The translations under genes were made by a program, and so were the position numbers. Positions 23,639-42,113 of a DNA stretch of 64,000 nucleotides are shown here, piece after piece. The DNA is from an uncultured Owenweeksia sp. (GTDB lineage: Bacteria; Bacteroidota; Bacteroidia; Flavobacteriales; Schleiferiaceae): the NCBI GenBank assembly GCA_937146805.1, contig CAKZRR010000017.1:124001-188000 (forward strand). Reading direction: 5' to 3'. Numbering within the stretch: the first letter of the stretch is position 1; every line of letters starts with the position of its first letter. Under the pieces are notes generated by a model, which did no database searches, had not been told where the DNA came from, and saw only the letters and a program-made list of their open reading frames with translations.

Positions 23639-24523
23639 TTAGCTGGCAAATAAAACCAAGCTTACAATACCACCAATAATAAGCAGGCGGTACAGTTGGT
23701 TAATGCGCGAAAAGTGTTGCTGCGTTTGTGCTTTGGCTAAAAGTAATAGCGAAAAGAATACACCTAGTCCACCTAATACGAGGTAGTAACTAATTCCGGT
23801 AAATTGTGTTTTGTAAAAAATAGCGGCTGCCGGCAGGGCGCCTAAAACTGCAAATACAGCTACAAGCCACTTGGTGTTTTTTAGTCCAAAGGTGGCCGGT
23901 AAGGTAGGGTAGCCCACAATTACATCTCCTTTAAGGGCTTCAAGGTCTTTAATTATTTCACGAATAAAAATGATTAGTAAAATGAAGCTGATGTAGGTGA
24001 GTATAAGCAGATCTTCGAGATGATAATAGATGAAGATGGCAAAAAAGGGAGTGATGGAAAGAAGAGCAGCCGTTAGGTTTCCCACGAAAGTGATTTTTTT
24101 GAGCTTATGTGAGTAAAACCAAAGCCCAAAAATGTAGGCGCTAAAAAATAAAAGCACTTTAGGCGAAGCCATTAAAGCCAACACAGCTCCAATGGTATTA
24201 AACAAAAAGTACAGCCTTAGGGTGGTAGATTGCCTCAGTATCTTTTCGTACACGGTTTTGTTGGGACGGTTGATGAGGTCTTTCTCTAAATCGTAAAAAT
24301 TATTGATGATGTAGCCTGCAGCAATGCAAAATAACGAAGCAAAAACAAGGTAGTGAAGGTTGGGGTTGGAGAGGGTTTGCTTCCAGTTTTCTTTGGGATT
24401 GAGAATAAATACTACAGCCAAGTATTGGCTTAAAGCCAGGAAGAAAATATTGTACCAACGTACCAACGAAAGCAAGGCAGAAACCTTGAAAAATACAAGT
24501 TTATGCCTTCTGGAAAGCGCCAA
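23639..24523 (-). CDS. UbiA-family prenyltransferase (DGGGP synthase-like)
   Basis: A 294-residue membrane prenyltransferase with about eight helices and both aspartate motifs: NNFYDLEKDLINRP and DLEALKGDVIVGYPTLPATFG. Bacteroidota proteins in this position are usually named geranylgeranylglycerol-phosphate geranylgeranyltransferase, which adds the second prenyl chain to GGGP. That activity is inferred from family and from its mevalonate-pathway neighbour. The start is TTG at 24523, two bases after the kinase stop, so the pair is cotranslated. A GGGP synthase is encoded at 41.4 kb. A quinone or other acceptor is an alternative. Confidence 0.85.
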   Translation of the reverse strand: MALSRRHKLVFFKVSALLSLVRWYNIFFLALSQYLAVVFILNPKENWKQTLSNPNLHYLVFASLFCIAAGYIINNFYDLEKDLINRPNKTVYEKILRQSTTLRLYFLFNTIGAVLALMASPKVLLFFSAYIFGLWFYSHKLKKITFVGNLTAALLSITPFFAIFIYYHLEDLLILTYISFILLIIFIREIIKDLEALKGDVIVGYPTLPATFGLKNTKWLVAVFAVLGALPAAAIFYKTQFTGISYYLVLGGLGVFFSLLLLAKAQTQQHFSRINQLYRLLIIGGIVSLVLFAS

Positions 24524-24525
24524 GT

Positions 24526-25464
24526 TTAAAAGCGGTAAATAAGTTCGGGATGATGATTTTTAAGTAAATCTTGCGCCTTTTCGTAATCGGGTGTAAAACC
24601 TAAAATAAATCCACCACCGCCTGATCCACAAAGTTTTAAGTAGTAAGCATTGGTGTCAATTCCTTGTTGCCACAGTTGTTGCACACTTTTAGGAATCATC
24701 GGATTAAAATACTCTAACACCAAATGACTCAACTTTTTAAGGTTGCTAAAAAGGGGCGTGGTATCTCCTTTTAAAAAAGCTTGAATACAAGCATCATTGT
24801 ACTTGGTAAATTCATCCTTCATCAATTTGCGGAAACCTTGGTTTTTCATCTTTTCCATAAAGATGTTTACCATGGGTTGTGTTTCGCCTGGTTGGCCACT
24901 ATTTAGTAAAAATATAGCGCCTTTTCCTTTGCCTGACTCAGGGATGTGCACAGTTCCCAAATCCTCTTTAGAGTTAATAAGCACCGGAAGTTGTAGGTAG
25001 CAAATAAGGGGGTCTAACCCACTACTTTTACCGTGGAAATACGATTCCATTTGCCCAAAAATTTGTTTCAATTTTAGGATGGAATCCTTATCAATGTTTT
25101 TGTCTGGATCTATTTTATCTAGGGCATATTTATCGTAGATGGCCGCACATAAAGCACCGCTGCTTCCTACGCCATACCCTTCGGGTATGCTGCTGTCAAA
25201 ATAAAAACCAGCCGTTAAATCATCTGTTAAAGTATCTAAATCAAGCGGAGCCAAAATTTGATTACTGGCCTGTAGTTGCTTTAAATGTTCTAAAAAACGA
25301 ACTAAACTTTGGTTTGATTTTTCGGCTTTGCCCTGCAAGGCCTCGCTTTGCTTAAAAGCGCCTTGGTAGTAATTGTAAGGGATAGAGAGCCCTTGCGAAT
25401 TATTGATAATGCCGTATTCTCCAAAAAGAAGAATTTTAGCGTAGTAAAATGGGTTTTTACTCAT
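24526..25464 (-). CDS. GHMP-family mevalonate kinase
   Basis: A kinase of 312 residues when started at ATG 25464, phosphorylating mevalonate in the isoprenoid pathway. GHMP motifs are present: YAKILLFGEYGII at the start, PEGYGVGSSGALCAAIY as the ATP loop, and KLCGSGGGGFILGF near the end. A TTG at 25503 extends the frame upstream but lies in the -7 element, so the ATG is preferred. It precedes the UbiA gene by two bases. The diphosphomevalonate decarboxylase is 3.6 kb away, separated by the accessory block. Confidence 0.88.
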   Translation of the reverse strand: MSKNPFYYAKILLFGEYGIINNSQGLSIPYNYYQGAFKQSEALQGKAEKSNQSLVRFLEHLKQLQASNQILAPLDLDTLTDDLTAGFYFDSSIPEGYGVGSSGALCAAIYDKYALDKIDPDKNIDKDSILKLKQIFGQMESYFHGKSSGLDPLICYLQLPVLINSKEDLGTVHIPESGKGKGAIFLLNSGQPGETQPMVNIFMEKMKNQGFRKLMKDEFTKYNDACIQAFLKGDTTPLFSNLKKLSHLVLEYFNPMIPKSVQQLWQQGIDTNAYYLKLCGSGGGGFILGFTPDYEKAQDLLKNHHPELIYRF

Positions 25465-25500
25465 AAGCTTTTCAGGCTCAGTGCCCGATAAAAGGTTGGG

Positions 25501-25508
25501 CAAATATA
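25501..25508 (-). promoter_or_regulatory. -7 element for the mevalonate kinase-UbiA operon
   Basis: The minus strand reads TATATTTG, matching TAnnTTTG, 36 bases before the ATG at 25464. Its position rules out the TTG at 25503 as a start. Confidence 0.5.
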
Positions 25509-25652
25509 CGTTTGTAAATTGAATATGGATGACGACATTGATAAATGGCTGGAATTGGCAAAATTCTATTGTGGTTTGAAATAGGGGTGTGTAGGATTGT
25601 TTTGATTTTGAAGGTTTATATTGCGGGTATAAACAAGACCGTATCTATTTAG

Positions 25653-26240
25653 ATGAAACGATTTTTCAAACTTTTAATTTATTCGATATTGGGGCTTCTG
25701 CTCATCGCAGGCCTATTCATTGTGTATCTAAAAAGTAACTTGAATAATAGTTTTGAAGAATCAGAAATCAAGGATCTAGTATCCGAGATTAAATTAGCAA
25801 GGAACCTTCCAAACGGCTTTATCACAGCATATAACCTAATTCATCCAATAACATCTACTACGAATATAATACTGGACTGGATCTTTGAAAAAGGAAGCAG
25901 AACCTGTCCTTGCCTAGATGTGGCTAGTGTGAGTCGGAATCTGACATTGAAGAATAGTAGAATTACAGGAAACCGATATGCTCTTGCTTGGAAATTGGAA
26001 AAACAATTATCGCAGCGAGAGTGCTTGAACTACCTTGGTACTAAATATGATTTGCTTTATCAATGTATTGGATTGGAAGAGGCTTCAAAGTATTATTTTA
26101 ACCAAGAGTTGGATTTCTTAAGCAACAAACAATTTGTTGTGTTGGCCTTAATGATGCAAAATCCATCTTACTACAACCCCAAAAGAAATCCGGAAATAAT
26201 AGAGGAGAAACTAAAAGATTTTGGGTTCACATCCAATTGA
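25653..26240 (+). CDS. Membrane-anchored GT51-like protein lacking catalytic motif
   Basis: A 195-residue protein with one N-terminal helix (about residues 5-28) and a C-terminal half resembling the later motifs of the GT51 peptidoglycan transglycosylases: ALAWKLEKQLSQRECLNYL corresponds to the LA.xLExxLSKxEILExYLN region, and ALMMQNPSYYNPKRNPEI to the LAxxxQxPxxYNPxxxP region, preceded by EEASKYYF. The first motif with the catalytic glutamate (EDxxFxxHxG) and the second (STIxQQ) are not visible. It therefore looks like a non-enzymatic relative. It begins an accessory block on the strand opposite to the flanking operon. Confidence 0.62.
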   Translation: MKRFFKLLIYSILGLLLIAGLFIVYLKSNLNNSFEESEIKDLVSEIKLARNLPNGFITAYNLIHPITSTTNIILDWIFEKGSRTCPCLDVASVSRNLTLKNSRITGNRYALAWKLEKQLSQRECLNYLGTKYDLLYQCIGLEEASKYYFNQELDFLSNKQFVVLALMMQNPSYYNPKRNPEIIEEKLKDFGFTSN

Positions 26241-26266
26241 GTACTTGAGCTGTTAGATAAACTTCA

Positions 26267-26863
26267 ATGAGTGATCCTCGAAAAAATATAATAATTCTAG
26301 TTTATGGTGTCTTACTGTTCCATTCTACTTTAGGTAAAACGCACGCTGTTTTTGTCTATTTATTTATTCTGTTGATAGAGCTTATTCTATTGGTATTGTT
26401 GTACGGAATTTCCAATTTCGCTTCTAAAGAAAAATCAAAAATTGATTTCACTAGCGTAATGATTGGTGCTGTACCCTTAGCACTTTTTAGCTATTGCATT
26501 ATTTATTTGGCGGCCATAAAGTTTGATGGAGTAGATGGTTTTAATGGATTTCTATATCCAGTAAGTATTTTCAAAAAGCAAGTATTGCTTGGCGTTATTG
26601 GAATTCTGATTGGTTATTCATCTGATTTTTGGAAGCGAAAAAAGGTAAGTTATAAATTGAAGGTAATTGAGTCTAAAGTTATTTATCAAGGCTTAAAATT
26701 GTGGGTTTTGGGCGCTTTAACTATTGTTATAATGACCCTAATCCCCACAAAGTTTTATCCTTTTGGAATTTCGATTTTGCCCATTGCTAGGATTGTTATG
26801 GAGTTTTCGTGGAATAAAATAAATTTGGATAATAATCAAAGAAAGTGGCTTAGTGCTAATTAA
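26267..26863 (+). CDS. Multi-pass membrane protein, unknown
   Basis: A 198-residue integral membrane protein with about five hydrophobic helices and charged loops (FASKEKSKIDF, KRKKVSYKLKV). No family is recognised. It lies 26 bases after the GT51-like gene on the same strand and may be cotranscribed with it. Its base composition looks more AT-rich than the housekeeping flanks, by eye. Confidence 0.62.
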   Translation: MSDPRKNIIILVYGVLLFHSTLGKTHAVFVYLFILLIELILLVLLYGISNFASKEKSKIDFTSVMIGAVPLALFSYCIIYLAAIKFDGVDGFNGFLYPVSIFKKQVLLGVIGILIGYSSDFWKRKKVSYKLKVIESKVIYQGLKLWVLGALTIVIMTLIPTKFYPFGISILPIARIVMEFSWNKINLDNNQRKWLSAN

Positions 26864-26962
26864 GGGAATTGGTTTATTTGCTGTTTTAGGATGCGTAGAT
26901 GTAATAACTTGAACTTATTTTAGACAGGTGTTTTAGAGATAGAGACTTAAAGACTAAAAAAC

Positions 26963-27157
26963 ATGATAAAATCAGTAAAAATCATATTAATAGTAATTGG
27001 AGCCTTTGGTGTTTTAGCGGGTGTGTTTTCGTTGATTAATGGTGCGGATCTTATGGAGAGTTATTCGGGAATATTTATGGGTGTTGTATTAATGGGAGTG
27101 TTTTGTTTTATAAGGGAAGTACGGATGATAGAACAAATGAATGATTACTTTGAATAG
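26963..27157 (+). CDS. Small two-helix membrane protein, unknown
   Basis: A 64-residue protein with two hydrophobic helices separated by a short polar loop (NGADLMESYSG), ending in a charged cytosolic tail. It stands between two unknown genes in the accessory block, with a gap of about 100 bases on each side. It is a plausible small gene with no known relatives recognised. Confidence 0.5.
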   Translation: MIKSVKIILIVIGAFGVLAGVFSLINGADLMESYSGIFMGVVLMGVFCFIREVRMIEQMNDYFE

Positions 27158-27246
27158 TGGTCTAATCCACAATGGATATATTTGCTTTGTGTTGATTAAT
27201 GGCTATGTTCACCCCAATAGAACCATAGGATAAAAGGCTTCAGTAA

Positions 27247-28218
27247 ATGTTGAAATTATTAAAAAAAATTCGGTTCACTCTTATTCAACGAAATATTGAT
27301 AGGAAAGAAAAAAAGGGCATTGAAAGTACCACGCTGAAAGGGAACTCAGAAGAAAAAATATTTTTCATTTTGGGATCGGGTAGAAATGGGAGCACTTTAA
27401 TGGCTAAGTTGTTAAATAAACACTCTCAAATTTTTTTACCGCCAGAGCAATATGCACTGCCTTATAGTATTGCAGATTGGCATGTAAGTCCAATAAAAAA
27501 ATGGCAGATATATAGTAAAAAACAGCTAACTAGGTATAGGCAAAACAACAATAATTGGAAGCTGGATGAGGGTGATTATGTGCAAATAGCAAAGCAAATT
27601 GAAAACTTAACTGCAAACGAGAGAGGCCCACGAGAAATATTTAAAAAAGTGTTTTTTCAGTATGCCAAAAAGTATGCTGCGAATAAATCAGCTGTTGGTG
27701 ATCACAGTCCTCTTAGTACGTTGTTTTATAAGTATTTAGCGTATGAATTCAGAGAGGATTATCATGTTTTTTTAATAAGGCACCCGTTGGATGTGGTGTT
27801 GTCCTACTCAAAAATGCCTGAAAATGCAGCTAGTAATCCACAAGATTCGGTTAAAAAATGGAACAACAGTGTGGCTGCATATGATTATTTAAAAGAGAAA
27901 AAGGCTAAGATTTTTTTGGTTCGCTATGAGGACTTGGTGCAAAAGCCTAGAGAAATTATTGGGGAGGTTTTATGTTTTCTAAATATAGCTAAAGAGGATT
28001 TATTTATAAAAGAAAACAGCCAACTGGCCAATGACTCGTTGGGAGTAAGCTCACTTAGACATCATCAAAACTTGTTTAAGCCAATCAGCTCAGATTCAAT
28101 AGGTAAGTGGAAAGTGGGGTTGGACCCGGAGCTTATTTGCAAAATTCAAGCAGATGTTAAGATAAATGCACAGCGTTTTGGCTATAGTCTTGAAATAAAT
28201 CATGAGCCCAAAAATTGA
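27247..28218 (+). CDS. Sulfotransferase-family protein
   Basis: A 323-residue PAPS-dependent sulfotransferase. The 5'-phosphosulfate loop is visible as FILGSGRNGSTLMAKLL, and the 3'-phosphate motif as FLIRHPLDVVLSYSK. It would transfer sulfate from PAPS to a hydroxyl or amine, perhaps on a glycan or lipid. The acceptor cannot be inferred. PAP, its product, would be cleared by CysQ at 2.7 kb. The 3' end overlaps the next gene by 17 bases. The gene is AT-rich and in the accessory block. Confidence 0.85.
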   Translation: MLKLLKKIRFTLIQRNIDRKEKKGIESTTLKGNSEEKIFFILGSGRNGSTLMAKLLNKHSQIFLPPEQYALPYSIADWHVSPIKKWQIYSKKQLTRYRQNNNNWKLDEGDYVQIAKQIENLTANERGPREIFKKVFFQYAKKYAANKSAVGDHSPLSTLFYKYLAYEFREDYHVFLIRHPLDVVLSYSKMPENAASNPQDSVKKWNNSVAAYDYLKEKKAKIFLVRYEDLVQKPREIIGEVLCFLNIAKEDLFIKENSQLANDSLGVSSLRHHQNLFKPISSDSIGKWKVGLDPELICKIQADVKINAQRFGYSLEINHEPKN

Positions 28219-28845
28219 CACGCATTTAATAGATGGTTGCGGGCGTTGTTCGTTGTATAAAACGCCTCAATGTAAGGTGCATACTTGGCAAGCCGAGTTA
28301 AAACTGTTGCGGAGTTTGGTGTTGGAATGTGGTTTGGAAGAAGAGTATAAATGGTCGCAACCCTGTTATACGTGTCAATCTAAAAACGTGCTAATTGTTA
28401 CAGCTTTTAAGAGTTATGCTGCTTTACGTTTTTTAAAGGAGCCCTATTAAAGGATGCGGAAGATTTACTGGTAGCGCCAGGCGAAAGTTCGCAATCGGGG
28501 AGACTCATAAAATTTACGAGCACTAAAAATATTGAAGCTTTACTCCCTGTTTTAAAAGCCTATATTTTTGAAGCTATAGAAGTGGAAAAAGCTGGTTTAG
28601 AAGTTGCTTTAAAGAAATACGTTGAACCATTGCCTGAAGAACTCTTAGAGAAATTTAAGGAATTGCCTAATTTAAAAATAGCTTTTGAGGGGCTAACACC
28701 AGGTAGGCAGCGCGGTTATATTATTCACTTTTCGCAACCAAAACAATCTAAAACAAGAACCAACCGAATTGAAAAGTGCCAACCTAAGATTATGAAGGGA
28801 GAAGGTATGAACGACCATTATAGGTCGATGCGAAAATCACCCTAA
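28202..28845 (+). pseudogene. Frameshifted YdeI/DUF1801-family gene
   Basis: The first frame (28202-28450) reads through the DUF1801-like segment WSQPCYTCQSKNVLIVTAFKSYAALRF and then stops. The continuation GALLKDAEDLLVAPGESS and the family C-terminus (RIEKCQPKIMKGEGMND) are in the next frame, open from the T run to 28845. One T too few in a run of six (28429-28434) causes the break, so the intact protein would be about 213 residues. It is either a decayed gene, a sequencing error at a homopolymer, or, less likely, programmed -1 frameshifting on T-TTT-TTA. It overlaps the sulfotransferase end by 17 bases. Confidence 0.8.
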
Positions 28846-28989
28846 GGCTTGGTTTTTCGAGACAGATTTATACAACGCAAGAGTTCTTTTCCAAATACAA
28901 TAGGACGATCATCTGCTCTCTGGCAAGTTGCGAATAGGTTCTCTTTAAAAGAAAAGATGTTTCCAAAATGAAATGTTTGATTTCGATAT

Positions 28990-29046
28990 CCTCCGCTAGG
29001 AGCCTGTACTGAGCTTGTCGAAGTAAAGGTGCCTGAAAGGCGGAGG
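28990..29046. repeat. Inverted repeat enclosing a CTGAGCTTGTCGAAG element
   Basis: CCTCCGC at 28990-28996 and GCGGAGG at 29040-29046 form a long-loop stem. Inside lies TACTGAGCTTGTCGAAGTA (29008-29024), a form of the CTGAGC[CT]TGTCGAAG short repeat seen in many genomes. It sits immediately after the end of mvaD (minus strand), so it may work as a transcription end or be a REP-like insertion. Confidence 0.5.
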
Positions 29047-29052
29047 CGGATT

Positions 29053-30090
29053 TTATTTCAATTCAATCGCTCCTTCACCCACACTATCCTTAATATACCT
29101 GCCGTCTCTTAGGTAGCCCTTGAGTTCACTCTCTACAAATGTCTTCACTTCATTTTCTGCTGAAGCAGGAAAAAGTAAATGTACATTAGCACCTGCATCT
29201 AGGGTGAAATAAAGCGGGGTATTGGTTTCTTTTCTGAACTGCCATACGAGGTCAATGATTTTAACTGTGTTGGGTTTCATAAGGATGAAATAAGGCTGCG
29301 AAGTCATCATCATAGCGTGCAGCGTAAGGGCCTCACTTTCCACCAAATTTCCAAAAGCTTCTAGATTGCCGCTTTCCAGAATGGACTCAAGCTTTGCTAG
29401 ATTTTTATGTGCCTGCTCAAATCGCTTTTTAGCAAAGGGATGATTGTTCATTAACCCATGTCCTGCCGTGCTACTCACACTTTTAGAGCCGACCTCTACA
29501 AGCAGTACATAGTCTTTAAAAGTCTTAAAAACCTCATGCACTTCTCCCTGAAAAGGAGTTGCGTATTGATCGTTACTACTTGGGCTGTTAGCACTTTCCC
29601 CCCATTGTACTAACCCGCCATACACTGAGCGGCTGGCACTCCCAGAGCCCAATCTGGCCCATTCACTAGCCTTTTGTAGAAAGTTGGTTTGCTCCTTCTC
29701 TTCCAAACGACTTTTAAGCGTAAGCAAGCAAAGTGCTAAAGCACTCATGCCCGAGGCACTACTTGCTATACCACTACTATGCGGAAAGCTATTGTGGGTT
29801 TTTATGCTGATATGGTATTCCTTTAAAAAACCCGCTTTATGCACAATGGTTTTAAAGAACTTCTCAATTTTTGGTTTGAAACTTTCCTCCAGTTTTCCAT
29901 CCAACAATACTTCAAAATCGAACTCACTAGATGATTGCTTTGGTGAAAAAGTAACCTCCGTTTCAGTATAACACTCATTTAGCGTAAAGCTTAAACTCGG
30001 GTTTGCTGGAATTTGATTCGCATGTTTACCCCAATATTTTACTAAGGCAATATTAGATGGGCTGCGCCATTTTGCTACGTGGATGGACAT
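29053..30090 (-). CDS. mvaD: Diphosphomevalonate decarboxylase
   Basis: A 345-residue GHMP-fold enzyme converting mevalonate diphosphate to isopentenyl diphosphate, ATP-dependently. The signature N-terminus is WRSPSNIALVKYWGKHANQ, the ATP loop is PHSSGIASSASGMSALAL, and the catalytic region contains SGSASRSVYGGLVQWGE. Length and motif order fit. It completes, with the mevalonate kinase at 24.5 kb, part of the mevalonate route. fabD follows upstream on the same strand. Confidence 0.95.
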   Translation of the reverse strand: MSIHVAKWRSPSNIALVKYWGKHANQIPANPSLSFTLNECYTETEVTFSPKQSSSEFDFEVLLDGKLEESFKPKIEKFFKTIVHKAGFLKEYHISIKTHNSFPHSSGIASSASGMSALALCLLTLKSRLEEKEQTNFLQKASEWARLGSGSASRSVYGGLVQWGESANSPSSNDQYATPFQGEVHEVFKTFKDYVLLVEVGSKSVSSTAGHGLMNNHPFAKKRFEQAHKNLAKLESILESGNLEAFGNLVESEALTLHAMMMTSQPYFILMKPNTVKIIDLVWQFRKETNTPLYFTLDAGANVHLLFPASAENEVKTFVESELKGYLRDGRYIKDSVGEGAIELK

Positions 30091-30130
30091 TAGTTTGTGT
30101 TTGAATTATTACCCCTTTGGGGCAGGGGCT

Positions 30131-31003
30131 TTAGGCGCTAGCCGCAACGGTATCTCTATTTATCTTTTTCACTAAACCTTGTAACACTTTACCTGGGCCA
30201 ACTTCCACAAACTCTGTAGCGCCATCAGCTATCATGTTTTGCACACTTTGCGTCCATTTTACGGGCGCAGTGAGCTGTGCAATTAGATTTTTCTTTATTT
30301 CGTTTGGATCGATTACAGCGGTAGTGCTTACATTTTGATACACTGGGCAGTTTGGTTGATTGAAAGTTGTGGCTTCAATAGCAGCCGCTAATTCTTCCTC
30401 CGCTGGTTTCATCAATGGTGAGTGAAATGCTCCACCAACTGGAAGTAATAAAGCTCTTCTAGCACCAGCTTCTTTCATTTTTTCGCAAGCTGCTTCTACT
30501 GCTGGTACGCTTCCCGAAATTACCAATTGACCCGGGCAGTTGTAATTAGCCGCTACCACGATTCCTTCGGTGGCTTCGCAAATTTCCTCAACGTGTACGT
30601 CTTCCAAACTCAAAACAGCGGCCATGGTTGAAGGTTCCATTTCACAAGCTTTTTGCATAGCCATCGCTCTTTTGGAAACTAATGTAAGACCGTCTTCAAA
30701 AGACAAAGTGCCATTAGCCACCAAAGCTGAAAGCTCGCCTAAAGAATGACCAGCCACCATATCAGGCTTGAAGTTATCTAAGGTTTTAGCCAAAATCACC
30801 GAGTGTAAAAACACAGCGGGCTGGGTTACTTTAGTTTGTTTTAAATCTTCGGCAGTACCGTCAAACATAATGTCGGTAATACGGAAGCCAAGTATATCAT
30901 TAGCTTTTTCAAAAAGTCCTTTAGCTACAGTTGAAGATTCGTAAAGGTCTTTGCCCATACCTACAAACTGTGCGCCTTGTCCGGGGAAGATGTATGATTT
31001 CAT
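30131..31003 (-). CDS. fabD: Malonyl-CoA:ACP transacylase
   Basis: A 290-residue enzyme that loads malonyl groups onto acyl carrier protein for fatty acid synthesis. It starts IFPGQGAQ, has the active-site serine in AGHSLGEL (about residue 86), the conserved Arg in KRAMAMQ, and the catalytic His in GGAFHSPLM. Length is normal. It is transcribed on the minus strand with mvaD downstream, 40 bases apart. Confidence 0.96.
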   Translation of the reverse strand: MKSYIFPGQGAQFVGMGKDLYESSTVAKGLFEKANDILGFRITDIMFDGTAEDLKQTKVTQPAVFLHSVILAKTLDNFKPDMVAGHSLGELSALVANGTLSFEDGLTLVSKRAMAMQKACEMEPSTMAAVLSLEDVHVEEICEATEGIVVAANYNCPGQLVISGSVPAVEAACEKMKEAGARRALLLPVGGAFHSPLMKPAEEELAAAIEATTFNQPNCPVYQNVSTTAVIDPNEIKKNLIAQLTAPVKWTQSVQNMIADGATEFVEVGPGKVLQGLVKKINRDTVAASA

Positions 31004-31008
31004 GGTGG

Positions 31009-31043
31009 TAGTATTTAGTATGAAGTACTAAGTATTTAGTACT
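31009..31043. repeat. Short TACT/AGTA-rich repeat next to four-helix-bundle gene
   Basis: The stretch contains repeated AGTATTTAGTA and AGTACTAAGTATTTAGTAC units, and a related GTACTCAACACTCAGTACT occurs on the other side of the small gene (31426-31450). Similar intergenic repeats commonly flank the four-helix-bundle genes in Bacteroidota; here they may mark an insertion between fabD and queD. Confidence 0.4.
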
Positions 31044-31052
31044 CGTATCTGT

Positions 31053-31412: not shown

Positions 31413-31456
31413 GTTTTTCTTTTCTCAAGACTTTGTACTCAACACTCAGTACTTTT

Positions 31457-31867: not shown

Positions 31868-31884
31868 GCAATGCAAAATTTGCG

Positions 31885-31979: not shown

Positions 31980-31983
31980 CGCC

Positions 31984-34080: not shown

Positions 34081-34096
34081 ACAAAAATTAACAACC

Positions 34097-34789
34097 ATGA
34101 AAAAGAATAATGTAATAATGCTCATTTTGTTGTTAGGAATGAGCTTGGGTTTACAAGCGCAGTCCGATGGCGGCAAAAGTAAAATTCGTATGGGAATACA
34201 CGCTATGCCCAATGTGAGTTTTTTAAGCACCACTGATGAAGATTTGGATACTAAATCAAAGCTAAAATTTGGTTTTGGCTTAATTACCGAGTTTAACTTT
34301 GCAGATAATTATTCTTTTTTAACTGGAGTGGACTACGTAATGCGTGGTGGTGAGTTTACAAAGGATTTTGATCAGGCGGTAATGCCTGGTGTTAGTGATA
34401 CCATAACGGAACTGAACGCGGCTTTTATACAAATACCCCTAATGCTTAAGATGCGTACTAAGCAATTTGGTTACATGAAGTATTTTGCCGAGTTTGGTGG
34501 TATTGCGGCCTTTAGAGCTAAAGAAGAACTAATTTTTAAGCCAAAAAAGGTGGAGTCTGATGTAAATGATAATTACGTTGCTTTTGCCGATTTTATTTTC
34601 TCGGTAGGGCTTGGGGCTGAGTACCATTTGGGTGGTCAAACTTATTTGCTGTTGGGCGTGTATTACAATCATAGCTTAAGTGATATTTTGAAAAAAGACA
34701 AGGCGCAGGATGCCAACAAACTTTGGGACGTTGAGAAATACAATTACCGCTTTAATTACGTGGGACTTAAAGTAGGAGTGCTATTTTAA
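34097..34789 (+). CDS. Outer membrane beta-barrel protein (PorT-like fold)
   Basis: A 230-residue protein with a signal peptide (LILLLGMSLGLQAQ) and about eight amphipathic strands with Gly-rich turns, ending YNYRFNYVGLKVGVLF (aromatic last residue). It matches the outer membrane protein beta-barrel family that includes PorT-like T9SS proteins. No specific function can be given. It is divergent from gldB and may form an operon with nadE. Confidence 0.8.
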   Translation: MKKNNVIMLILLLGMSLGLQAQSDGGKSKIRMGIHAMPNVSFLSTTDEDLDTKSKLKFGFGLITEFNFADNYSFLTGVDYVMRGGEFTKDFDQAVMPGVSDTITELNAAFIQIPLMLKMRTKQFGYMKYFAEFGGIAAFRAKEELIFKPKKVESDVNDNYVAFADFIFSVGLGAEYHLGGQTYLLLGVYYNHSLSDILKKDKAQDANKLWDVEKYNYRFNYVGLKVGVLF

Positions 34790-34808
34790 ATTTACGAGTA
34801 AAATTTAC

Positions 34809-35609
34809 ATGCAAACAGCAAAAGTTACCGAGCACATTGTTGCTTGGTTAAAGGAATATGCTACCAAAGCGAATTGTAAAGGTTTTGTTATTGGTATTTC
34901 AGGTGGAATCGATTCAGCGGTAACTTCTACTCTTTGTGCTAAAACGGGCATGACTACACTTTGTGTTGAAATGCCCATTCATCAAAATCAGAGTCAGGAA
35001 ATTAGAGGAAAGACACATATAGAATGGCTTAAAAATAGCTTCGAAAATGTGGATAGTTTAGCGGTTGATTTGAGCGAAACTTTTGATGCTTTGAGCGGGG
35101 TATTGCCGCAAACAAGCAATTTCGAGCGTAGAGATTTGAGTTTGGCCAACACTAGAGCACGTCTCCGTATGACTAGTCTGTACTACATGGCTGGCATTAG
35201 AGGTTTTTTAGTGGCCGGTACTGGTAATAAGGTGGAAGATTTTGGTGTAGGTTTTTATACAAAGTATGGAGATGGAGGTGTGGATTTAAGTCCAATTGCC
35301 GATTTGTTGAAGTCTGAGGTAAAAGAATTAGCAAGTTACTTATCCATAGATAGTTCCGTTGTAAATGCAGCACCTACTGATGGTTTGTGGGGGGATGACA
35401 GAACGGATGAAGATCAGTTGGGAGCTACCTATTTAGAGCTGGAATGGGCCATGCAAAAGTATGATTTGAATGAGCCAGCGGAAAATTTTGTAGGAAGGGA
35501 GCGCGAGGTATTTGAAATTTATACTAAATTACACCGCTCTAACTTACATAAGATGCGGCCTGTACCGATATGTATTATCGAAAAAGAGTTGAGAAATAAT
35601 GTAAACTAG
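34809..35609 (+). CDS. nadE: Ammonia-dependent NAD+ synthetase
   Basis: A 266-residue N-type ATP-pyrophosphatase that makes NAD+ from nicotinic acid adenine dinucleotide and ammonia. The PP-loop is ISGGIDSAVTS, and substrate motifs are ARLRMTSLY and GTGNKVEDFGVGFYTKYGDGGVDL. The glutaminase domain of the larger form is absent, so ammonia is the nitrogen source. It lies 20 bases after the barrel gene. In flavobacteria nadE commonly neighbours gldB and gldC. Confidence 0.96.
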   Translation: MQTAKVTEHIVAWLKEYATKANCKGFVIGISGGIDSAVTSTLCAKTGMTTLCVEMPIHQNQSQEIRGKTHIEWLKNSFENVDSLAVDLSETFDALSGVLPQTSNFERRDLSLANTRARLRMTSLYYMAGIRGFLVAGTGNKVEDFGVGFYTKYGDGGVDLSPIADLLKSEVKELASYLSIDSSVVNAAPTDGLWGDDRTDEDQLGATYLELEWAMQKYDLNEPAENFVGREREVFEIYTKLHRSNLHKMRPVPICIIEKELRNNVN

Positions 35610-35697
35610 AGATGTCAGAGCCAACCAAAAAAAACCTACCTTGTTGCACCTATTATTTGGTGAAAGGAATTAATGAGGAAAAATAAAATTGCAAAGA

Positions 35698-36312
35698 ATG
35701 ATTAGATTAATACTCGCAGATGATCATGCCGTAGTGCGTAAAGGGCTTCAACTTTTTATCGGTTATGAAGATAACTTGAAATTGGTAGGCGAAGCTTCAG
35801 ATGGTGAAGAGCTGCTACAGGTTATTCAAGACCAAGAAGCAGACATTTTATTGTTGGATTTGGATATGCCGAAAATGAATGGAATTACGGCCATTCGTAA
35901 AATCAAGGAATTGGCTCCAGATTTAAAAATCATTATACTTTCGATGCATCCAGAGGATCTTTATGGAAAGACAGCCTATCAAATGGGAGCTTATGGTTAT
36001 ATGATTAAGGATGAGGAGCCTAAAAAGCTTATTGTAGCTATTAATAAAGTAGCAGCTGGCGAAAAAGTGTTTAGCGATAGCGTGTTAAACGCTAAAAAGA
36101 GAGATAAGGCTATTCGCTTAAGTCAACGCGAAATAGAGGTGTTAAAACTTCTTTCTACAGGTAAGTCTAACAAGGATATATCCGAAGAATTAGAAATTAG
36201 CGATAAAACGGTAAGTACGTATAAGCTTCGTTTGCTCAATAAAATTGGCGCGAAGTCGGTAGTAGATTTAGTGAATTTTTCTACTGCGTACCCAGAGATT
36301 CTTAATCGCTAG
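35698..36312 (+). CDS. NarL/LuxR-type response regulator
   Basis: A 204-residue two-domain regulator. The receiver domain has the acid pocket (LADDHAVVRKG), the phospho-Asp in LLLDLDMPKMNG and Lys in MIKDE. The C-terminal LuxR-type helix-turn-helix is LSQREIEVLKLLSTGKSNKDISEEL. The ATG at 35698 is preferred; no partner kinase is adjacent. A Cys-containing 24-codon open frame lies just before it. Confidence 0.93.
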   Translation: MIRLILADDHAVVRKGLQLFIGYEDNLKLVGEASDGEELLQVIQDQEADILLLDLDMPKMNGITAIRKIKELAPDLKIIILSMHPEDLYGKTAYQMGAYGYMIKDEEPKKLIVAINKVAAGEKVFSDSVLNAKKRDKAIRLSQREIEVLKLLSTGKSNKDISEELEISDKTVSTYKLRLLNKIGAKSVVDLVNFSTAYPEILNR

Positions 36313-36357
36313 TAAGCAAGACTATTTATTTTTTTAACGATGCGTACTTACATTAGC

Positions 36358-36365
36358 TACTTTTG
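36358..36365 (+). promoter_or_regulatory. -7 promoter element of der
   Basis: TACTTTTG matches TAnnTTTG, 20 bases before the GTG start of der. Confidence 0.4.
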
Positions 36366-36384
36366 CGGCTAAATTATTTTAGCA

Positions 36385-37689
36385 GTGGCAAATATTGTAG
36401 CAATCGTAGGTCGTCCCAATGTTGGTAAATCAACATTATTCAATCGGTTAACCCAAAGTCGTGAGGCCATCGTAGATTCGGTGTCGGGAGTAACAAGAGA
36501 TCGTATTTACGGTAAGTTTGATTGGTCTGGAAGAGATTTTTCGGTAATTGATACCGGAGGTTACGTTATTGGTTCGGACGATATCTTTGAAGAAGAGATT
36601 AGAAAACAGGTGATATTGGCTATGGATGAGGCTAATATTATTGTTTTTGTAGTGGATGCGGATGAAGGCATTACTGGAATGGATCAAGAAGTGGCTGCTA
36701 TGCTGCGTAAAAATAAAAAGCCCGTATTATTAGTCGCCAATAAGGTGGATAACGCCATGAGGCAAACCCAATCGGCCGAATTTTATGGTCTAGGTTTGGG
36801 AGAAATTTACAATATATCGGCAATCAATGGGTCAGGAACAGGCGAGCTACTAGATAAAATTGTAGAAGAATTACCAGATGATGTTGAGGAAGAAGACTTA
36901 AAGCTTCCGCGTATTGCGGTAGTTGGCAGGCCTAATGTTGGTAAATCCTCTTTTATTAACGCCCTTACGGGAGAAGAAAGAAACATCGTAACCGATATTG
37001 CAGGTACTACTCGCGACTCTATTAATACGCGCTACAAGCTTTTTGGTAAAGATTTTATACTGGTAGATACTGCGGGTGTTCGTAAGAAAACCAAGGTTCA
37101 CGAAAACTTGGAGTTTTACTCGGTAATGCGTTCTGTTCGTGCTATCGAAAATTCGGATGTATGTGTGTTGATACTGGATGCCACAAGAGGTGTTGAAAGT
37201 CAGGATTTGTCCATTTTTGGATTGGCCGAAAAGAATAAAAAAGGGATTGTTATTTTAGTGAATAAATGGGATCTAATTGAAAAAGATCATAAGACTGCTG
37301 AAAAGTTTAAATCTTTGATTATTAAAAAATTAGAGCCATTTACGGATTTACCAGTCATCTTTGTATCGGTGCTAAATAAGCAGCGCATATTTCAAGCCAT
37401 TGAAGAGGCTATGAGAGTGTATGAAAGAAGAGAGCAGCACATTGCAACCAGTAAGTTAAATGATTTGATGCTGCCCATCATTGAAGCTATGCCACCGCCC
37501 GCTCTAAAGGGTAAATACGTAAAAATAAAATTTTGCACTCAGTTGCCTACACAAACACCTTCGTTTGCCTTTTTTGCTAATTTGCCGCAGTACGTTAAGG
37601 AGCCTTATAAGCGATTTTTAGAGAACAAGCTTCGCGAAAATTTCGATTTCACGGGTGTTCCGGTTCAAATTTACCTTCGTAAAAAGTAG
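36385..37689 (+). CDS. der: Ribosome biogenesis GTPase Der (EngA)
   Basis: A 434-residue tandem-GTPase for 50S assembly. The two G domains begin [13 protein letters not shown] and [13 protein letters not shown]; each has a G3 (DTGG, DTAG) and an NKVD/NKWD motif, and a C-terminal KH-like domain ([12 protein letters not shown]) follows. The start is GTG at 36385, giving MANIVAIVG; no ATG fits. It is convergent with gldA, 26 bases apart. Confidence 0.96.
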
Positions 37690-37715
37690 AAAACCTAAGA
37701 GCTAATTGAGGTTTC

Positions 37716-38615
37716 TTACTTCTCCGTGAGTTGTTGAAAAATTTGCTCTAATTTTTGTTCCTCTTGTTTTATTTCTAAAACCGCTGCTTGCTGTGATACG
37801 GCATGGTTAAATATAGAAGCTCTGATGTCTATTCCAGGCATGGACTCAAAAAGCCATTTGGTTGCAGATACCTTTTTTAAGGCTTTTACACCAGCAATAG
37901 CGCTTAGTTCTTTTTGTTCTAACTTCCTGTCAAACTCCACCACAAATACTTTATCGCTTTGAGTGGTTTTTAAGTCAGAGGTAGGTTTGTCCGTTACAAT
38001 TTTGCCGTTATTAATGATAATAACCCTGTCACATAGCAGTTCCACTTCTTGCATAATGTGAGTAGAAAGCATTATCGTTTTGCTGGCACCAATTTCTTTA
38101 ATAACGTCACGTATTTCGGCCAGTTGATTGGGGTCTAAACCAGTGGTGGGTTCATCCAATATAAGTACTTCGGGGTTGTGTAAAAGGGCGGCTGCTAAAC
38201 CCGTTCGTTGACGATAACCTTTTGATAGTTGAGAAAGTTTTTTGTGGCTTTCTTTTGTGAGTCCCACTTTGTCAATTATCTCATTAATACTTTCTCTTGG
38301 AGCTTTGTAAATGCCTGCCATAAAAGCTAGATACTCACGTACATACATCTCTAAATAGAGGGGGTTGTGCTCGGGCAAGTAGCCTACCTTTTTTCGGATA
38401 GCAATACTGTCTTCCATTACATCCATCCCGCAAACTTTGGCGCTGCCACTACTTTGTGGGAGGTAGCAAGTTAAAATTTTCATCATGGTTGATTTTCCGG
38501 CACCGTTAGGGCCTAAAAATCCTACTATTTCACCACTTCCAATTTTAAAGCTTACTTGGTCAAGCGCCTTTTGCTCCCCGTATATTTTGCTAATATTTTT
38601 TACTTCTATCGACAT
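37716..38615 (-). CDS. gldA: Gliding motility ABC transporter ATPase GldA
   Basis: A 299-residue ABC ATPase. Walker A is FLGPNGAGKST, the signature is LSKGYRQRTGLA, and Walker B is VLILDEPTTGLDP. KKVGYLPEHNPLYLEMYVREYL is a strong GldA-type stretch. GldA works with GldF and GldG as an ABC exporter needed for gliding; these partners are not in the window, as is common in flavobacteria. Confidence 0.9.
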   Translation of the reverse strand: MSIEVKNISKIYGEQKALDQVSFKIGSGEIVGFLGPNGAGKSTMMKILTCYLPQSSGSAKVCGMDVMEDSIAIRKKVGYLPEHNPLYLEMYVREYLAFMAGIYKAPRESINEIIDKVGLTKESHKKLSQLSKGYRQRTGLAAALLHNPEVLILDEPTTGLDPNQLAEIRDVIKEIGASKTIMLSTHIMQEVELLCDRVIIINNGKIVTDKPTSDLKTTQSDKVFVVEFDRKLEQKELSAIAGVKALKKVSATKWLFESMPGIDIRASIFNHAVSQQAAVLEIKQEEQKLEQIFQQLTEK

Positions 38616-38801
38616 GCTGCTATTTCTGCGCGCTAAGCTAAAAATTAATGCCCACTTTGCTTATTTATTTGTACTGATATACTTGGTTAATATTGCTCAG
38701 TAACCAGAAATTTAGCTCTTAATTTTGCTTAAGTTTGAACGCTTAAAAATGAGATGGGTGTGGTGTTCAAGTTTAAAGAAAAGGCGCTAGTTTACTAAAG
38801 C

Positions 38802-39746
38802 ATGCAAGGTGTTATTCAAAAATCTACAGGTAGTTGGTATCAAGTAAAAACCAGTAACCACCAATTGGTGGAGTGCCGTATTGTGGGTAAGTTGCGCTTA
38901 AGCGGAATTAAAAGTACCAACCCGGTGGCCGTAGGTGATGTGGTAGAATTTGAATTGGAAAATGGTGCGGAAACGGGTATCATAAAAAAGATACTGCCTC
39001 GTAAAAACTACATTATTCGTAAATCTGTAAACCTTGCCAAGCAAACGCAAATTATTGCAGCAAACTTAGATCAGGCCGTACTGATTGTTACTCTTGATTT
39101 CCCTAAGACCTTTCCACGGTTTATTGATCGATTTTTGGTTACGGCCGAGGCGTATAGCATTCCGGCAACGGTAGTTTTTAATAAGGTTGATTTATATGAT
39201 GAAAACTTACTAAATGATTTGGAGTTTTATACGCTAGTATATCAAAATGCAGGTTACCAAGTATTGCATACTTCGGTGCCAGATGATTTTGGTTTGGCGG
39301 ATTTTAAGCAGATTTTAAAGGATAAAACAAGCTTATTGAGCGGACATTCAGGGGTGGGTAAATCTACTCTAATCAATACGATTGAACCAAAGTTAGATTT
39401 AAAGACATCCTTTATTTCAGATTCGCATCATCAAGGCCAGCACACTACTACTTTTGCCGAAATGTTTGCTTTAAGTTTTGGCGGAAATATAATTGATACC
39501 CCAGGAATAAAGGGCTTTGGTTTGGTGGAAATGGAGCAGGAAGAGATTGGTGACTACTTTCCAGAAATACTGGCGTTAAAAAGTGCCTGTAAATTTAATA
39601 ATTGCTTACACTTAAACGAGCCGCAGTGTGCGGTGAAGGAAGCTGCTGAGGAAGGAACTTTTGCCTTTACCCGTTACGAGAGTTACCTTAGTTTTGTAAG
39701 CGGAAATGAAGAAGATAATTTTAGAAAAGATATTTATGCAAATTAA
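38802..39746 (+). CDS. rsgA: Ribosome small subunit GTPase RsgA
   Basis: A 314-residue circularly permuted GTPase for 30S maturation. The G4 motif NKVD precedes the P-loop LLSGHSGVGKSTLIN, followed by the switch (TTTFAEMFAL) and G3 DTPGIKGF. An N-terminal OB-fold and a C-terminal zinc cluster (CKFNNCLHLNEPQC) are visible. The end overlaps the acid phosphatase gene by 11 bases. Confidence 0.95.
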   Translation: MQGVIQKSTGSWYQVKTSNHQLVECRIVGKLRLSGIKSTNPVAVGDVVEFELENGAETGIIKKILPRKNYIIRKSVNLAKQTQIIAANLDQAVLIVTLDFPKTFPRFIDRFLVTAEAYSIPATVVFNKVDLYDENLLNDLEFYTLVYQNAGYQVLHTSVPDDFGLADFKQILKDKTSLLSGHSGVGKSTLINTIEPKLDLKTSFISDSHHQGQHTTTFAEMFALSFGGNIIDTPGIKGFGLVEMEQEEIGDYFPEILALKSACKFNNCLHLNEPQCAVKEAAEEGTFAFTRYESYLSFVSGNEEDNFRKDIYAN

Positions 39747-40578
39747 AAAATGGAGTGCATTAGTACTCGGAGCTACACTTTTAGTGGGAGCTTGTGGAAC
39801 ACAAAAAAGCAACACTCAAACAGAAGTGAAACCCGAACCTATTTCGGATCACCTTGTAAATAGTACACTTTGGTTTCAACGATCGTATGAGGCCAAGTAT
39901 ACTTTTGAGCAAGCTTATAGGCATGCGGGCACCTTGTTGGAACAAAATGTACAGCGTGCGGCTAGCAGAGGAAGACGAATGGCGGTTATCATAGATTTGG
40001 ACGAAACCGTATTGGATAACAGTCCTTATGAGGCGCGGCTAGTTGTAAATAACGAAAGTTACAACGAGGAATCTTGGGCTAAGTGGGTGAACGAACGATC
40101 GGCTGCTGTTTTGCCTGGGGTAATTCACTTCATTAAAAAGGCAGAAGCGTTGGGCGTAGAGGTTTTTTATGTGTCAAACCGTTCGGTTGATTTAATGGAA
40201 CCCACCTTAGATAACCTAATTCAACAAGGCTTACCCTTTGCGGATGGCGAGCATATTTTGCTAAAAGAAGGAGATTCAGATAAAACCGAGCGAAGAGAAC
40301 GTATAAAGCAAACTCACAGAGTGGTATTGGTTGTTGGTGATCAGATGGAGGATTTTATGTTGGAATATACTCAAATATATGACGAGGCTACGAGCGATGG
40401 GTCAGACCGAGCGCCTATATCAGGAGTAGATTCATTGAGTCAGTATTTTGTGATTTTGCCAAACCCAATGTACGGTTCTTTTGAGCGCTCTACCTATAAT
40501 GGTAATTCGGTGAGTGAAGCGGAGAAAATGGAGTATAGAAAGCGTGCTTTAAATGTAAACAGGAAAATGAAGCAGTGA
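39736..40578 (+). CDS. Class C acid phosphatase lipoprotein (e(P4) family)
   Basis: A 280-residue HAD-superfamily 5'-nucleotidase. The lipoprotein signal is GATLLVGACGT, and the catalytic motif is MAVIIDLDETVLDNSPYE (DxDxT). Later SNRS and VGDQMEDFM are motifs 2 and 4. Family members dephosphorylate nucleotides (including NMN) at the outer membrane to permit uptake. The ATG at 39736 overlaps the rsgA end by 11 bases; the extended frame to 39706 would lie deeper in rsgA. Confidence 0.93.
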   Translation: MQIKKWSALVLGATLLVGACGTQKSNTQTEVKPEPISDHLVNSTLWFQRSYEAKYTFEQAYRHAGTLLEQNVQRAASRGRRMAVIIDLDETVLDNSPYEARLVVNNESYNEESWAKWVNERSAAVLPGVIHFIKKAEALGVEVFYVSNRSVDLMEPTLDNLIQQGLPFADGEHILLKEGDSDKTERRERIKQTHRVVLVVGDQMEDFMLEYTQIYDEATSDGSDRAPISGVDSLSQYFVILPNPMYGSFERSTYNGNSVSEAEKMEYRKRALNVNRKMKQ

Positions 40579-41027
40579 GAGCGTTACTACAGAGGGTTTC
40601 GGGTGCATCAGTGCTGATTGATACTACTGAAAAGCAAGAGATAGGCTGTGGATTAGTGGTGTTAGTGGGTATTGAAGAAGCGGATAGTGAGGAAGATATT
40701 ATTTGGCTAATCAAGAAAATAATGACTTTGCGAATTTTTCGTGATGTTGATGGTAAAATGAACCTTTCGGTGAAGGATATTGATGGGGATCTTTTGGTAG
40801 TAAGCCAGTTTACCCTACATGCATCTACCCGTAAAGGAAATCGACCAAGTTTTATTAAAGCAGCTAAGCCAGAGCAAGCCGTTCCTTTGTATCTCAAATT
40901 TATTGAGGAGTGCAAAATTCATTTCCCGAAAGGGGTGAGAACTGGAAAGTTTGGCGCTAATATGGAGATAACTTTAACCAACGATGGGCCAGTAACCATT
41001 TGGCTAGACAGTAAAAACAGGGAGTAA
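40575..41027 (+). CDS. dtd: D-aminoacyl-tRNA deacylase
   Basis: A 150-residue enzyme that hydrolyses D-aminoacyl-tRNA and so protects translation. VSQFTLHASTRKGNRPSF and the C-terminal ANMEITLTNDGPVTIWL hold the two active-site sections. It starts with GTG overlapping the previous TGA by three bases, which implies coupling. Its stop overlaps the next ATG (TAATG). Confidence 0.96.
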   Translation: MRALLQRVSGASVLIDTTEKQEIGCGLVVLVGIEEADSEEDIIWLIKKIMTLRIFRDVDGKMNLSVKDIDGDLLVVSQFTLHASTRKGNRPSFIKAAKPEQAVPLYLKFIEECKIHFPKGVRTGKFGANMEITLTNDGPVTIWLDSKNRE

Positions 41028-41359
41028 TGGCAGAGGGAATAAAGGAGATGCAAAAGGTAGTGGATGATTGGATTAATAATCACGGGGTACGGTATTTTAA
41101 TGAACTTACTAATATGGCCCAGCTTACCGAAGAGGTAGGTGAAGTGGCTCGGATTATAGCACGCAGGTATGGGGAGCAAAGCGAAAAAGAAAGTGATAAG
41201 AGTAAAGACTTAGGTGAAGAACTGGCCGATGTTCTTTTTGTAACGCTTTGTTTAGCAAACCAAACAGGTGTAGATTTACAAGGCGCTTTTGACAAAAAAA
41301 TGGAGGTGAAAACCAAGCGCGATCACGATAGGCATCAAAATAACAGTAAGCTAAAATAA
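41027..41359 (+). CDS. MazG-like nucleotide pyrophosphohydrolase
   Basis: A 110-residue all-alpha pyrophosphatase. LTEEVGEVARIIARRYGE and DLGEELADVLFVTLCLANQTGVDL provide the acidic metal residues (EExxE and ExxD) of the MazG fold. It is short, so it resembles the single-domain family rather than full MazG. The substrate (a house-cleaning non-canonical NTP) is inferred from family. It is the last gene of the rsgA-phosphatase-dtd-mazG operon. Confidence 0.9.
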   Translation: MAEGIKEMQKVVDDWINNHGVRYFNELTNMAQLTEEVGEVARIIARRYGEQSEKESDKSKDLGEELADVLFVTLCLANQTGVDLQGAFDKKMEVKTKRDHDRHQNNSKLK

Positions 41360-41369
41360 ACTCTTAGAT

Positions 41370-42113
41370 CTAAGATTGATGCACAGCTTTTGCAATTTGC
41401 TTTATGAGCTTTGGATTTTTTTCGGTAGCATTTCCTATAACCACAATATCGGCCCCAGCTAAACAAACTTCACGCGCCATTTCGGGTGTTTTAATACCTC
41501 CACCAATAATTATTGGTGTTGAAACAGAGGCTCTTACTTGGTTAATCATTTGAGTGCTAACGGGTTTGTCTGCGCCCGATCCGCCATCTAAATAAGTGAG
41601 TTTTTGACCCAGCATTTCTCCAGCCATAGCGGTACAAGCTGCAATTTCACCTTTGTTATAAGGTATAGGAAAGCTGCCGCTCATGTAAGAGGCGGTGGTT
41701 GCTTTTCCACAATCTACCAGTAAATAGCCAGTGGCTAAAGGCTCTAATTTTGCTTGTTTTATATAAGGTGCAGAAATCACGTGGCTGCCAATCAATAATT
41801 CGGGGTTGCGACCCGAGATTAAGGATAAAAACAAAATGGCATCTGCTTTATCAGAAATTTGAAGGATGCTGCCAGGGAATATAATAACGGGAACATCGGT
41901 AAGTTTTTTGATTTTTGAAATACAGGTATCCAGGGCATCCTTAATTAAAAGGCTTCCGCCTAAAAAAATAAGATCAGCTTTGGCGCTATTAATTTGTTCA
42001 ATAATAGCCTCCAGTTCGGCATCATTTGGCGTGTCAGGGTCAATAAGCACGGCCAATTGCTTGCGTTTTTCGCTATGCGCCTGATATATTTTATCGAGAA
42101 TTTTTGTTGCCAT
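41370..42113 (-). CDS. Geranylgeranylglyceryl phosphate synthase (PcrB/GGGPS)
   Basis: A 247-residue TIM-barrel prenyltransferase that ether-links a prenyl diphosphate to glycerol-1-phosphate. The family motifs are LIDPDTP, FPGSILQIS, YLDGGSGADKPV and IIGGGIKTPEM, covering the glycerol phosphate and phosphate sites. The length fits the group II enzymes present in some Bacteroidota. In this window it complements the UbiA prenyltransferase at 23.6 kb and the mevalonate genes. Product chain length cannot be read. Confidence 0.93.
   Translation of the reverse strand: MATKILDKIYQAHSEKRKQLAVLIDPDTPNDAELEAIIEQINSAKADLIFLGGSLLIKDALDTCISKIKKLTDVPVIIFPGSILQISDKADAILFLSLISGRNPELLIGSHVISAPYIKQAKLEPLATGYLLVDCGKATTASYMSGSFPIPYNKGEIAACTAMAGEMLGQKLTYLDGGSGADKPVSTQMINQVRASVSTPIIIGGGIKTPEMAREVCLAGADIVVIGNATEKNPKLIKQIAKAVHQS

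Follow-up and report, generated by a model that had tools for sequence, protein, structure and literature searches.

Does the genome of an uncultured Owenweeksia sp. (Schleiferiaceae, Bacteroidota) encode an archaeal-like route to prenyl ether lipids and, if so, which of its UbiA-superfamily proteins is the second enzyme of that route? The question arises from a 64,000-nucleotide stretch of DNA (hereafter the window), which lies on contig 17 of a 3.16 Mb genome whose assembly is 98.9% complete, and in which the open reading frames (ORFs) of a UbiA protein (hereafter A), a mevalonate kinase, a diphosphomevalonate decarboxylase and a geranylgeranylglyceryl phosphate (GGGP) synthase (GGGPS) all lie on the minus strand. 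The initial annotation had read these genes as such a route, with A as the digeranylgeranylglyceryl phosphate (DGGGP) synthase (DGGGPS). We find that the route exists in kind, but that A is probably the wrong gene for its second step, having lost the aspartate D183, with a better candidate (hereafter B) encoded on contig 29. We consider it likely that A is no longer a DGGGPS, that GGGPS and B together make a DGGGP-type diether, and that A uses another acceptor.

By family and fold, A (positions 23639–24523, minus strand, 294 codons) is a UbiA-superfamily membrane protein and a DGGGPS-related paralogue. It scores 94.1 bits against the Pfam UbiA model PF01040 (cut-off 34.2), its closest solved structure by sequence is a DGGGPS (6m31, E 1.4e-12), and its AlphaFold2 (AF2) model, with a predicted local distance difference test score (pLDDT) of 90.8, has 6m31 as top structural match (Z 24.3, root-mean-square deviation 3.7, 274 residues), followed by other UbiA proteins. 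This match establishes the UbiA fold, not the reaction. The curated models of GGGP geranylgeranyltransferases all score A below their cut-offs (NF009512 at 104.5 against 278, NF009521 at 92.6 against 296, and NF009522 at 81.2 against 353).

Functionally, the residues that matter are known from the Methanocaldococcus jannaschii enzyme (MjDGGGPS), for which the available text of PMC9385802 names N62, D66, D70, Y125, K130 and a motif-3 Asp triad as key; alanine mutants of D66, D70, D180, D183 and D187 show a strong drop in activity, and in the motif mutants GGGP binding is impaired and the binding of geranylgeranyl diphosphate (GGPP) hardly so. That paper numbers motif 3 in two ways, and we use D180, D183 and D187 since these fit the chain. 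Read from the DNA, motif 1 of A is intact (codons N74 to D82, 24278–24304, minus strand, with N74, D78 and D82 at the N62, D66 and D70 positions). The Y125 and K130 positions of motif 2 are also kept, and in motif 3 (codons D193 to D200, 23924–23947, minus strand) D193 and D200 occupy the D180 and D187 positions, but the middle aspartate, D183, is Ala196. The initial claim of a UbiA protein at 23.6 kb with both Asp motifs therefore stands for the gene and for motif 1, and fails at the centre of motif 3.

This loss is shared by the whole A clade, which comprises 17 members among 149 genomes of the Bacteroidia, the class searched with A. Residues were counted on sequences aligned to the MjDGGGPS chain, excluding L155 and L216, neither of which has an ORF of 230 residues, and nine or ten duplicate loci, depending on the count. 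D183 is kept in none of the 17 A members, in 174 of 178 other Bacteroidia-type rows (112/113 Maf-linked B-type and 62/65 remaining homologues; these rows come from class and named public genomes, some of their genes may be nearly identical, and a few are from other phyla), in all 22 rows from the Fibrobacteres–Chlorobi–Bacteroidetes (FCB) group (four of them, L190, L191, L200 and L201, being records titled Bacteroidetes), and in all seven archaeal homologues. The complete triad is found in 0/17, 172/178, 22/22 and 4/7 of these sets, respectively; besides D183, D180 is missing from three A members and D187 from four. Motif 1 is complete (N, D, D) in 17/17 A members, the motif-2 Tyr is kept in 16/17 and the Lys in 10/17, and D63 is replaced throughout the clade, with Asn at that position. 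Four residues, F76, H139, K140 and Y205, are invariant across the 17 and rare among the 178, so A appears to be under constraint of its own and not simply decaying.

The better candidate emerged from a search with A, which returned a second homologue in the same genome. This protein, B (G000:C29:40178-41122), carries all eight residues, N62, D66, D70, Y125, K130, D180, D183 and D187 (row L056), and its closest solved structure by sequence is MjDGGGPS. The gene order at its locus is a DUF2520 protein, a KdsC-family haloacid dehalogenase (HAD) phosphatase, B and Maf, and across the class B-type genes are repeatedly accompanied by a Maf-like gene on their own strand. Three further UbiA proteins occur in the genome. 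One is a CtaB-type heme O synthase (TIGR01473, 254.1 bits, cut-off 210.3), encoded in the window (3712–4461, plus strand), and another is a MenA (TIGR00751, 271.5 bits, cut-off 102.15), the CtaB and MenA names resting on curated models and not on profiles built from the same proteins. The last, a fifth UbiA-like protein (L286, G000:C32), is very divergent and falls just below the Pfam cut-off.

Evolutionarily, a carefully built tree of 65 rows unites its 15 A rows in one clade (support 100/100, stem 0.89). This clade sits within a Bacteroidia clade (100/100) that itself branches among FCB proteins, adjacent to archaeal proteins of the DGGGPS type; 25 of 90 rows, comprising outgroups and long or odd rows, were excluded from this tree. 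A quick tree of all 90 rows with outgroups also recovers A as one clade (Shimodaira–Hasegawa-like approximate likelihood ratio test, 94), and we made no use of its placement of the MenA rows, which came out long-branched amid odd rows of the class. From the positions of named relatives, the genome itself would belong to the class Bacteroidia and probably to the order Flavobacteriales. Because the A clade is nested inside the Bacteroidia DGGGPS-like clade, A is a duplicate of the Bacteroidia DGGGPS-like gene. The phylogenetic placement that had been proposed as a check thus puts A in the DGGGPS-like family and not with menaquinone or heme transferases, but in a paralogue clade of its own. A MenA or CtaB identity was likewise rejected on models, none of that kind being among the matches of A up to E 0.001, as was an EboC/Ubi-297 identity (NF035940, 31.7 bits, cut-off 250). 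One taxon name may be wrong: the UbiA of L215, titled a Chryseobacterium gleum metagenome-assembled genome (MAG), is very near that of a Crocinitomicaceae MAG (L226).

Across the class, 126 of the 132 genomes with GGGPS carry a non-A UbiA with all eight residues intact, against 4 of the 17 without GGGPS (Fisher p 3e-11, uncorrected for relatedness; G017 and G027, whose loci are unresolved, enter as genomes that lack one). The UbiA family model was run on each of the 17 genomes in which GGGPS has no match, a few weak PF01040 matches not being retrieved. Family by family, in f50 the genome G147 has neither GGGPS nor B and keeps decarboxylase, kinase and A, and G057 and G091 have GGGPS, A and B; in f22, G094 is without GGGPS and carries a B with Asn in place of D183, and G061 and G124 keep both, G094 also holding a second, intact-looking homologue (L065). 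Only 4 of the 178 non-A proteins are without D183, and the three with Asn in its place (L062, L063 and L064) are all from the GGGPS-lacking G013, G054 and G094, the first two of the same genus, a pattern that is a possible sign of GGGP dependence. The fourth (L072, G036:C53) is an extra copy in its genome: a long-branched, third Maf-linked UbiA with several catalytic letters lost, found beside A and B. As for A, it persists without GGGPS or B in G147 and in G020, where it lies beside the kinase, and without GGGPS in G123, so it does not occur only with a GGGP-making enzyme.

Several observations weigh against assigning the second step to B and another acceptor to A, in addition to the limits of the Fisher test. 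G018, G094, G122 and G123 are without GGGPS yet hold an intact-looking non-A UbiA, which in G018 and G122 (family f21) is a B. Conversely, G016, G017, G027, G057, G091 and G098 bear GGGPS and, by our count, no intact non-A UbiA; G057 and G091 have only D180 changed, G017 offers a truncated ORF only, and the ORF of G027 is unresolved. D180 is Gly in three of the seven archaeal homologues, so motif 3 tolerates some change. Against NF009512, B reaches 265 bits, narrowly below the cut-off of 278 (A scores only 104.5), and NF009513, the best model of A, is also the best for the non-A proteins L030, L035, L063, L064, L065, L066 and L067, so model ranking alone cannot part A from B. The nearest solved structure of A remains a DGGGPS. 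Finally, F148 lines the GGPP tunnel of MjDGGGPS, and its mutation abolished GGPP binding (PMC9385802, available text). Phe stands at this position in 15/17 A members, 5/178 other Bacteroidia-type rows, 19/22 FCB rows and 3/7 archaeal homologues, and the B of this genome has Val. Across the tunnel positions I29, F148 and S171, the window protein reads L, F, I and B reads L, V, V; archaeal homologues vary too, and the I29 and S171 positions do not set A apart from other homologues. On residues, then, A seems capable of binding a prenyl diphosphate, and the F148 result would favour such binding by A and speak somewhat against B, for which reason we lowered our confidence in our reading by a small step.

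The same result makes a little less improbable the assignment with which we began, namely that A is a DGGGPS, perhaps working alongside B, in a lineage where D183 is dispensable. To the tunnel Phe, absent from B, this assignment can add a DGGGPS as best match in the Protein Data Bank (PDB) by both sequence and structure, the retention in A of motif 1, Y125, K130, D180 and D187, and the genome G016, which has GGGPS and A with only a divergent other homologue. We nevertheless judge it unlikely, given the loss of D183 in 17/17 members, compounded by D180 in three and D187 in four, the survival of A in G020 and G147, which have neither GGGPS nor B, and the presence in the same genome of a B with all eight residues.

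Where A sits offers a further clue to its role. The mevalonate kinase gene (24526–25503, minus strand), which the initial annotation had correctly placed at 24.5 kb, lies two bases upstream of the A ORF, and 15 of the 17 A loci have a same-strand kinase gene no more than 33 bases from A; together these make chance adjacency an untenable explanation. In one of the other two loci the kinase is 719 bases away, and in the other (L024) none occurs within the short flank examined. The kinase has GHMP N and C domains above cut-off, and its best NCBIfam model is TIGR00549 at 69.8 bits, below the cut-off of 163, so that the kinase assignment draws on the GHMP domains, this sub-threshold match and the neighbours. 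The diphosphomevalonate decarboxylase was likewise found where it had been expected, near 29.1 kb (29053–30090, minus strand; TIGR01240, 188.2 bits, cut-off 171.35), and a decarboxylase adjoins the kinase in at least 9 of the 17 A loci, as seen in short flanks. The neighbours common to most A loci are mevalonate enzymes, and the only other neighbour recurring between A-locus genomes in the flanks examined is a pseudouridine synthase, in three loci of the same order. A kinase-linked UbiA paralogue and its motif-3 loss were not met in the open-access literature, searched short of full texts, and A apparently represents a UbiA clade, linked to the mevalonate pathway, that has not been described before. 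In the window itself, the kinase and decarboxylase genes, which adjoin in at least nine relatives, are parted by plus-strand genes at 25653–28218 that encode a short transglycosylase-domain protein, a protein without a Pfam match and a sulfotransferase.

Such a location invites a regulatory explanation. UBIAD1, a UbiA protein, is held to tune HMG-CoA reductase, and A might be its bacterial counterpart, a non-catalytic membrane sensor or buffer of prenyl diphosphate that tunes the adjacent mevalonate enzymes. Consistent with this are the mevalonate enzymes as shared neighbours, an intact motif 1 in 17/17 members combined with a full motif-3 Asp triad in 0/17, the tunnel Phe148 kept in 15/17, and the UBIAD1–HMGCR complex among the structural matches of A (Z 18.2, rank 10), although any UbiA protein would be expected to resemble UBIAD1 in structure. 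The MjDGGGPS motif mutants, too, kept GGPP binding (PMC9385802, available text). With D180 and D187 still present in the window protein, and tunnel positions I29 and S171 that do not distinguish A, we hold this explanation very improbable; a role of A as a prenyltransferase for an acceptor other than GGGP would, by its residues, be the most likely one.

The first enzyme of the route is secure. The GGGPS gene (41370–42113, minus strand; PcrB family), which had been reported at 41.4 kb, passes two curated cut-offs (NF003198, 279.6 bits, cut-off 247; TIGR01769, 195.0 bits, cut-off 161.55), and among solved structures it is nearest in sequence to 4jej (E 3.5e-56), the two being 44.6% identical across 231 columns. 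It deviates in 0 of 23 near-invariant columns of a 41-row alignment that counts the window protein twice and one other genome also twice. A GGGPS is ordinary in the class, since PF01884 matches 132 of the 149 genomes. The suspicion of a damaged enzyme, raised by the Asp in YLDGGSG where 4jej and 4mm1 have Glu, was dropped, Asp being usual in class loci and present in one Cloacimonadota locus. Some 50 bases upstream of GGGPS, the same strand encodes a member of the 4'-phosphopantetheinyl transferase superfamily (42164–42817; PF01648 above cut-off), and a gene of this kind occurs within about 100 bases of GGGPS in 9 of the 33 class loci examined, this one included.

How far does the rest of an archaeal-like pathway extend? 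The mevalonate route is the likely prenyl source, as the initial annotation had proposed, because no DXP reductoisomerase match was found in the genome. The genome has two polyprenyl synthases, and the L076 protein is nearest to IdsA and GGPP synthase (GGPPS) models, below their cut-offs. A geranylgeranyl reductase (GGR)-superfamily protein is also encoded; it scores 161.4 bits against TIGR02032 (cut-off 158.8), at superfamily level, and 87.3 against the archaeal reductase model NF041080 (cut-off 580). The two genes whose presence had been proposed as a check were not found: for CDP-archaeol synthase (CarS), PF01864 has no match in the genome (7 of 14 controls match), and for glycerol-1-phosphate dehydrogenase (G1PDH; araM/egsA), the sole PF13685 match in this 98.9% complete genome is an AroB on contig 52, rejected as a G1PDH on that identification, and NF002022 has no match, which does not prove absence. 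NF002022 is modelled on archaeal G1PDH, bacterial AraM being covered only by PF13685, and it scores above cut-off in 0 of the 149 class genomes and in 3 of 14 controls. PF13685 matched 123 of the 149, most matches not being identified singly; when 8 of the 12 loci with the best class matches were scanned, the best family of each was AroB or iron-containing alcohol dehydrogenase. The claim of an archaeal-like ether lipid route is thus supported in part: the genome encodes the pair of GGGPS and a DGGGPS-type protein, a mevalonate supply, a GGPPS-like protein and a GGR-superfamily protein, and no G1PDH or CarS was found.

These gaps bear on the product. The one-chain ether of the Bacillales undergoes dephosphorylation, and GGGPS and B could in the same way serve a neutral or minor prenyl-glycerol lipid by dephosphorylation of GGGP or DGGGP, the HAD protein upstream of B being a possible phosphatase. 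We regard this as a tentative possibility that fits the missing PF01864 match in the genome, the making of a one-chain ether by Bacillales (PMC9179154, available text) and the HAD gene, which abuts B here and of which a like gene recurs beside many B homologues. This HAD protein, however, passes a KdsC-family cut-off (TIGR01670, 121.0 bits, cut-off 106.95), and lipopolysaccharide sugar synthesis would be a simpler role for it. A neutral lipid concerns the product, and it can hold together with the roles that we favour for A and B.

Judging from the computed gene identities, paralogy, residue loss, synteny and co-occurrence, we posit that the window GGGPS would link glycerol phosphate to a prenyl chain, which is most likely C20, and that B would probably add the second chain to give a DGGGP-type diether, the probable lipid product, with the mevalonate pathway feeding the route. 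Glycerol-1-phosphate would have to be supplied by something other than a recognisable G1PDH, or else the enzymes would use glycerol-3-phosphate (G3P). A is the outcome of a gene duplication within the Bacteroidia DGGGPS-like clade and settled beside mevalonate kinase, keeping the motif-1 residues and losing D183, a residue that MjDGGGPS requires for its activity and that takes part in GGGP binding. Because D183 is lost, A most likely no longer makes DGGGP and would most likely use a prenyl diphosphate with a different acceptor. The distinction has practical weight. Bacteroidota widely carry GGGPS, and where a genome holds more than one UbiA protein, the wrong one can be mistaken for its partner; D183 offers a simple sequence test for which UbiA can partner GGGPS, and the difference between a Maf-linked B and a kinase-linked A shows which gene should be chosen for deletion or expression. 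Were A a sensor after all, it would be a receptor reporting isoprenoid status that derives from an archaeal-type lipid synthase.

The general idea of GGGPS and DGGGPS in FCB bacteria without G1PDH is already known, and the initial statement that GGGPS and UbiA homologues occur in this group is borne out by published work. In the available text of these papers, orthologues of both enzymes are reported from all 12 FCB phyla surveyed, with G1PDH in two only (Coleman 2019, PMC6431249); a Cloacimonetes GGGPS/DGGGPS pair was expressed in E. coli and the missing G1PDH noted (Villanueva 2020, PMC7852524), the expressed pair giving archaeal-type phospholipids according to Coleman 2019 (PMC6431249); and Bacteroidetes GGGPS and DGGGPS-type sequences were noted (Lombard 2012, PMC3533463). 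The genome described here resembles these cases in combining both gene types, in a member of the Bacteroidota, without a recognisable G1PDH. In contrast to the Cloacimonetes pair, which is co-localised, GGGPS and B lie on different contigs, and the available text of the three papers does not separate a kinase-linked from a Maf-linked paralogue. For the 2025 Black Sea lipid paper, the available text has nothing on GGGP synthase, and a search of the open-access literature returned no papers on UbiA terpene cyclases in Bacteroidetes.

Among individual proteins, the window GGGPS is alike to the Bacteroidota enzyme in 4jej, which we take to be the entry for the F. johnsoniae GGGPS, and no substantive difference was found between them. 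The F. johnsoniae enzyme is classed as group IIb in the available text of PMC9385802. EboC/Ubi-297 of marine Flavobacteria belongs to the UbiA superfamily and to the same bacterial group, and the available text of the Ubi-297 paper (PMC9235831) also recognises a DGGGPS-like group in Flavobacteria; A differs from EboC/Ubi-297 in falling far short of the NF035940 cut-off, the ebo neighbour genes not having been searched for. The closest known system is MjDGGGPS (6m31, 7bpu), the best solved match of A by sequence and fold and of B by sequence. B shares its eight residues and differs in lacking the tunnel residue F148, whereas A differs in lacking D183, in having Asn at D63, and in forming a separate clade beside mevalonate kinase.

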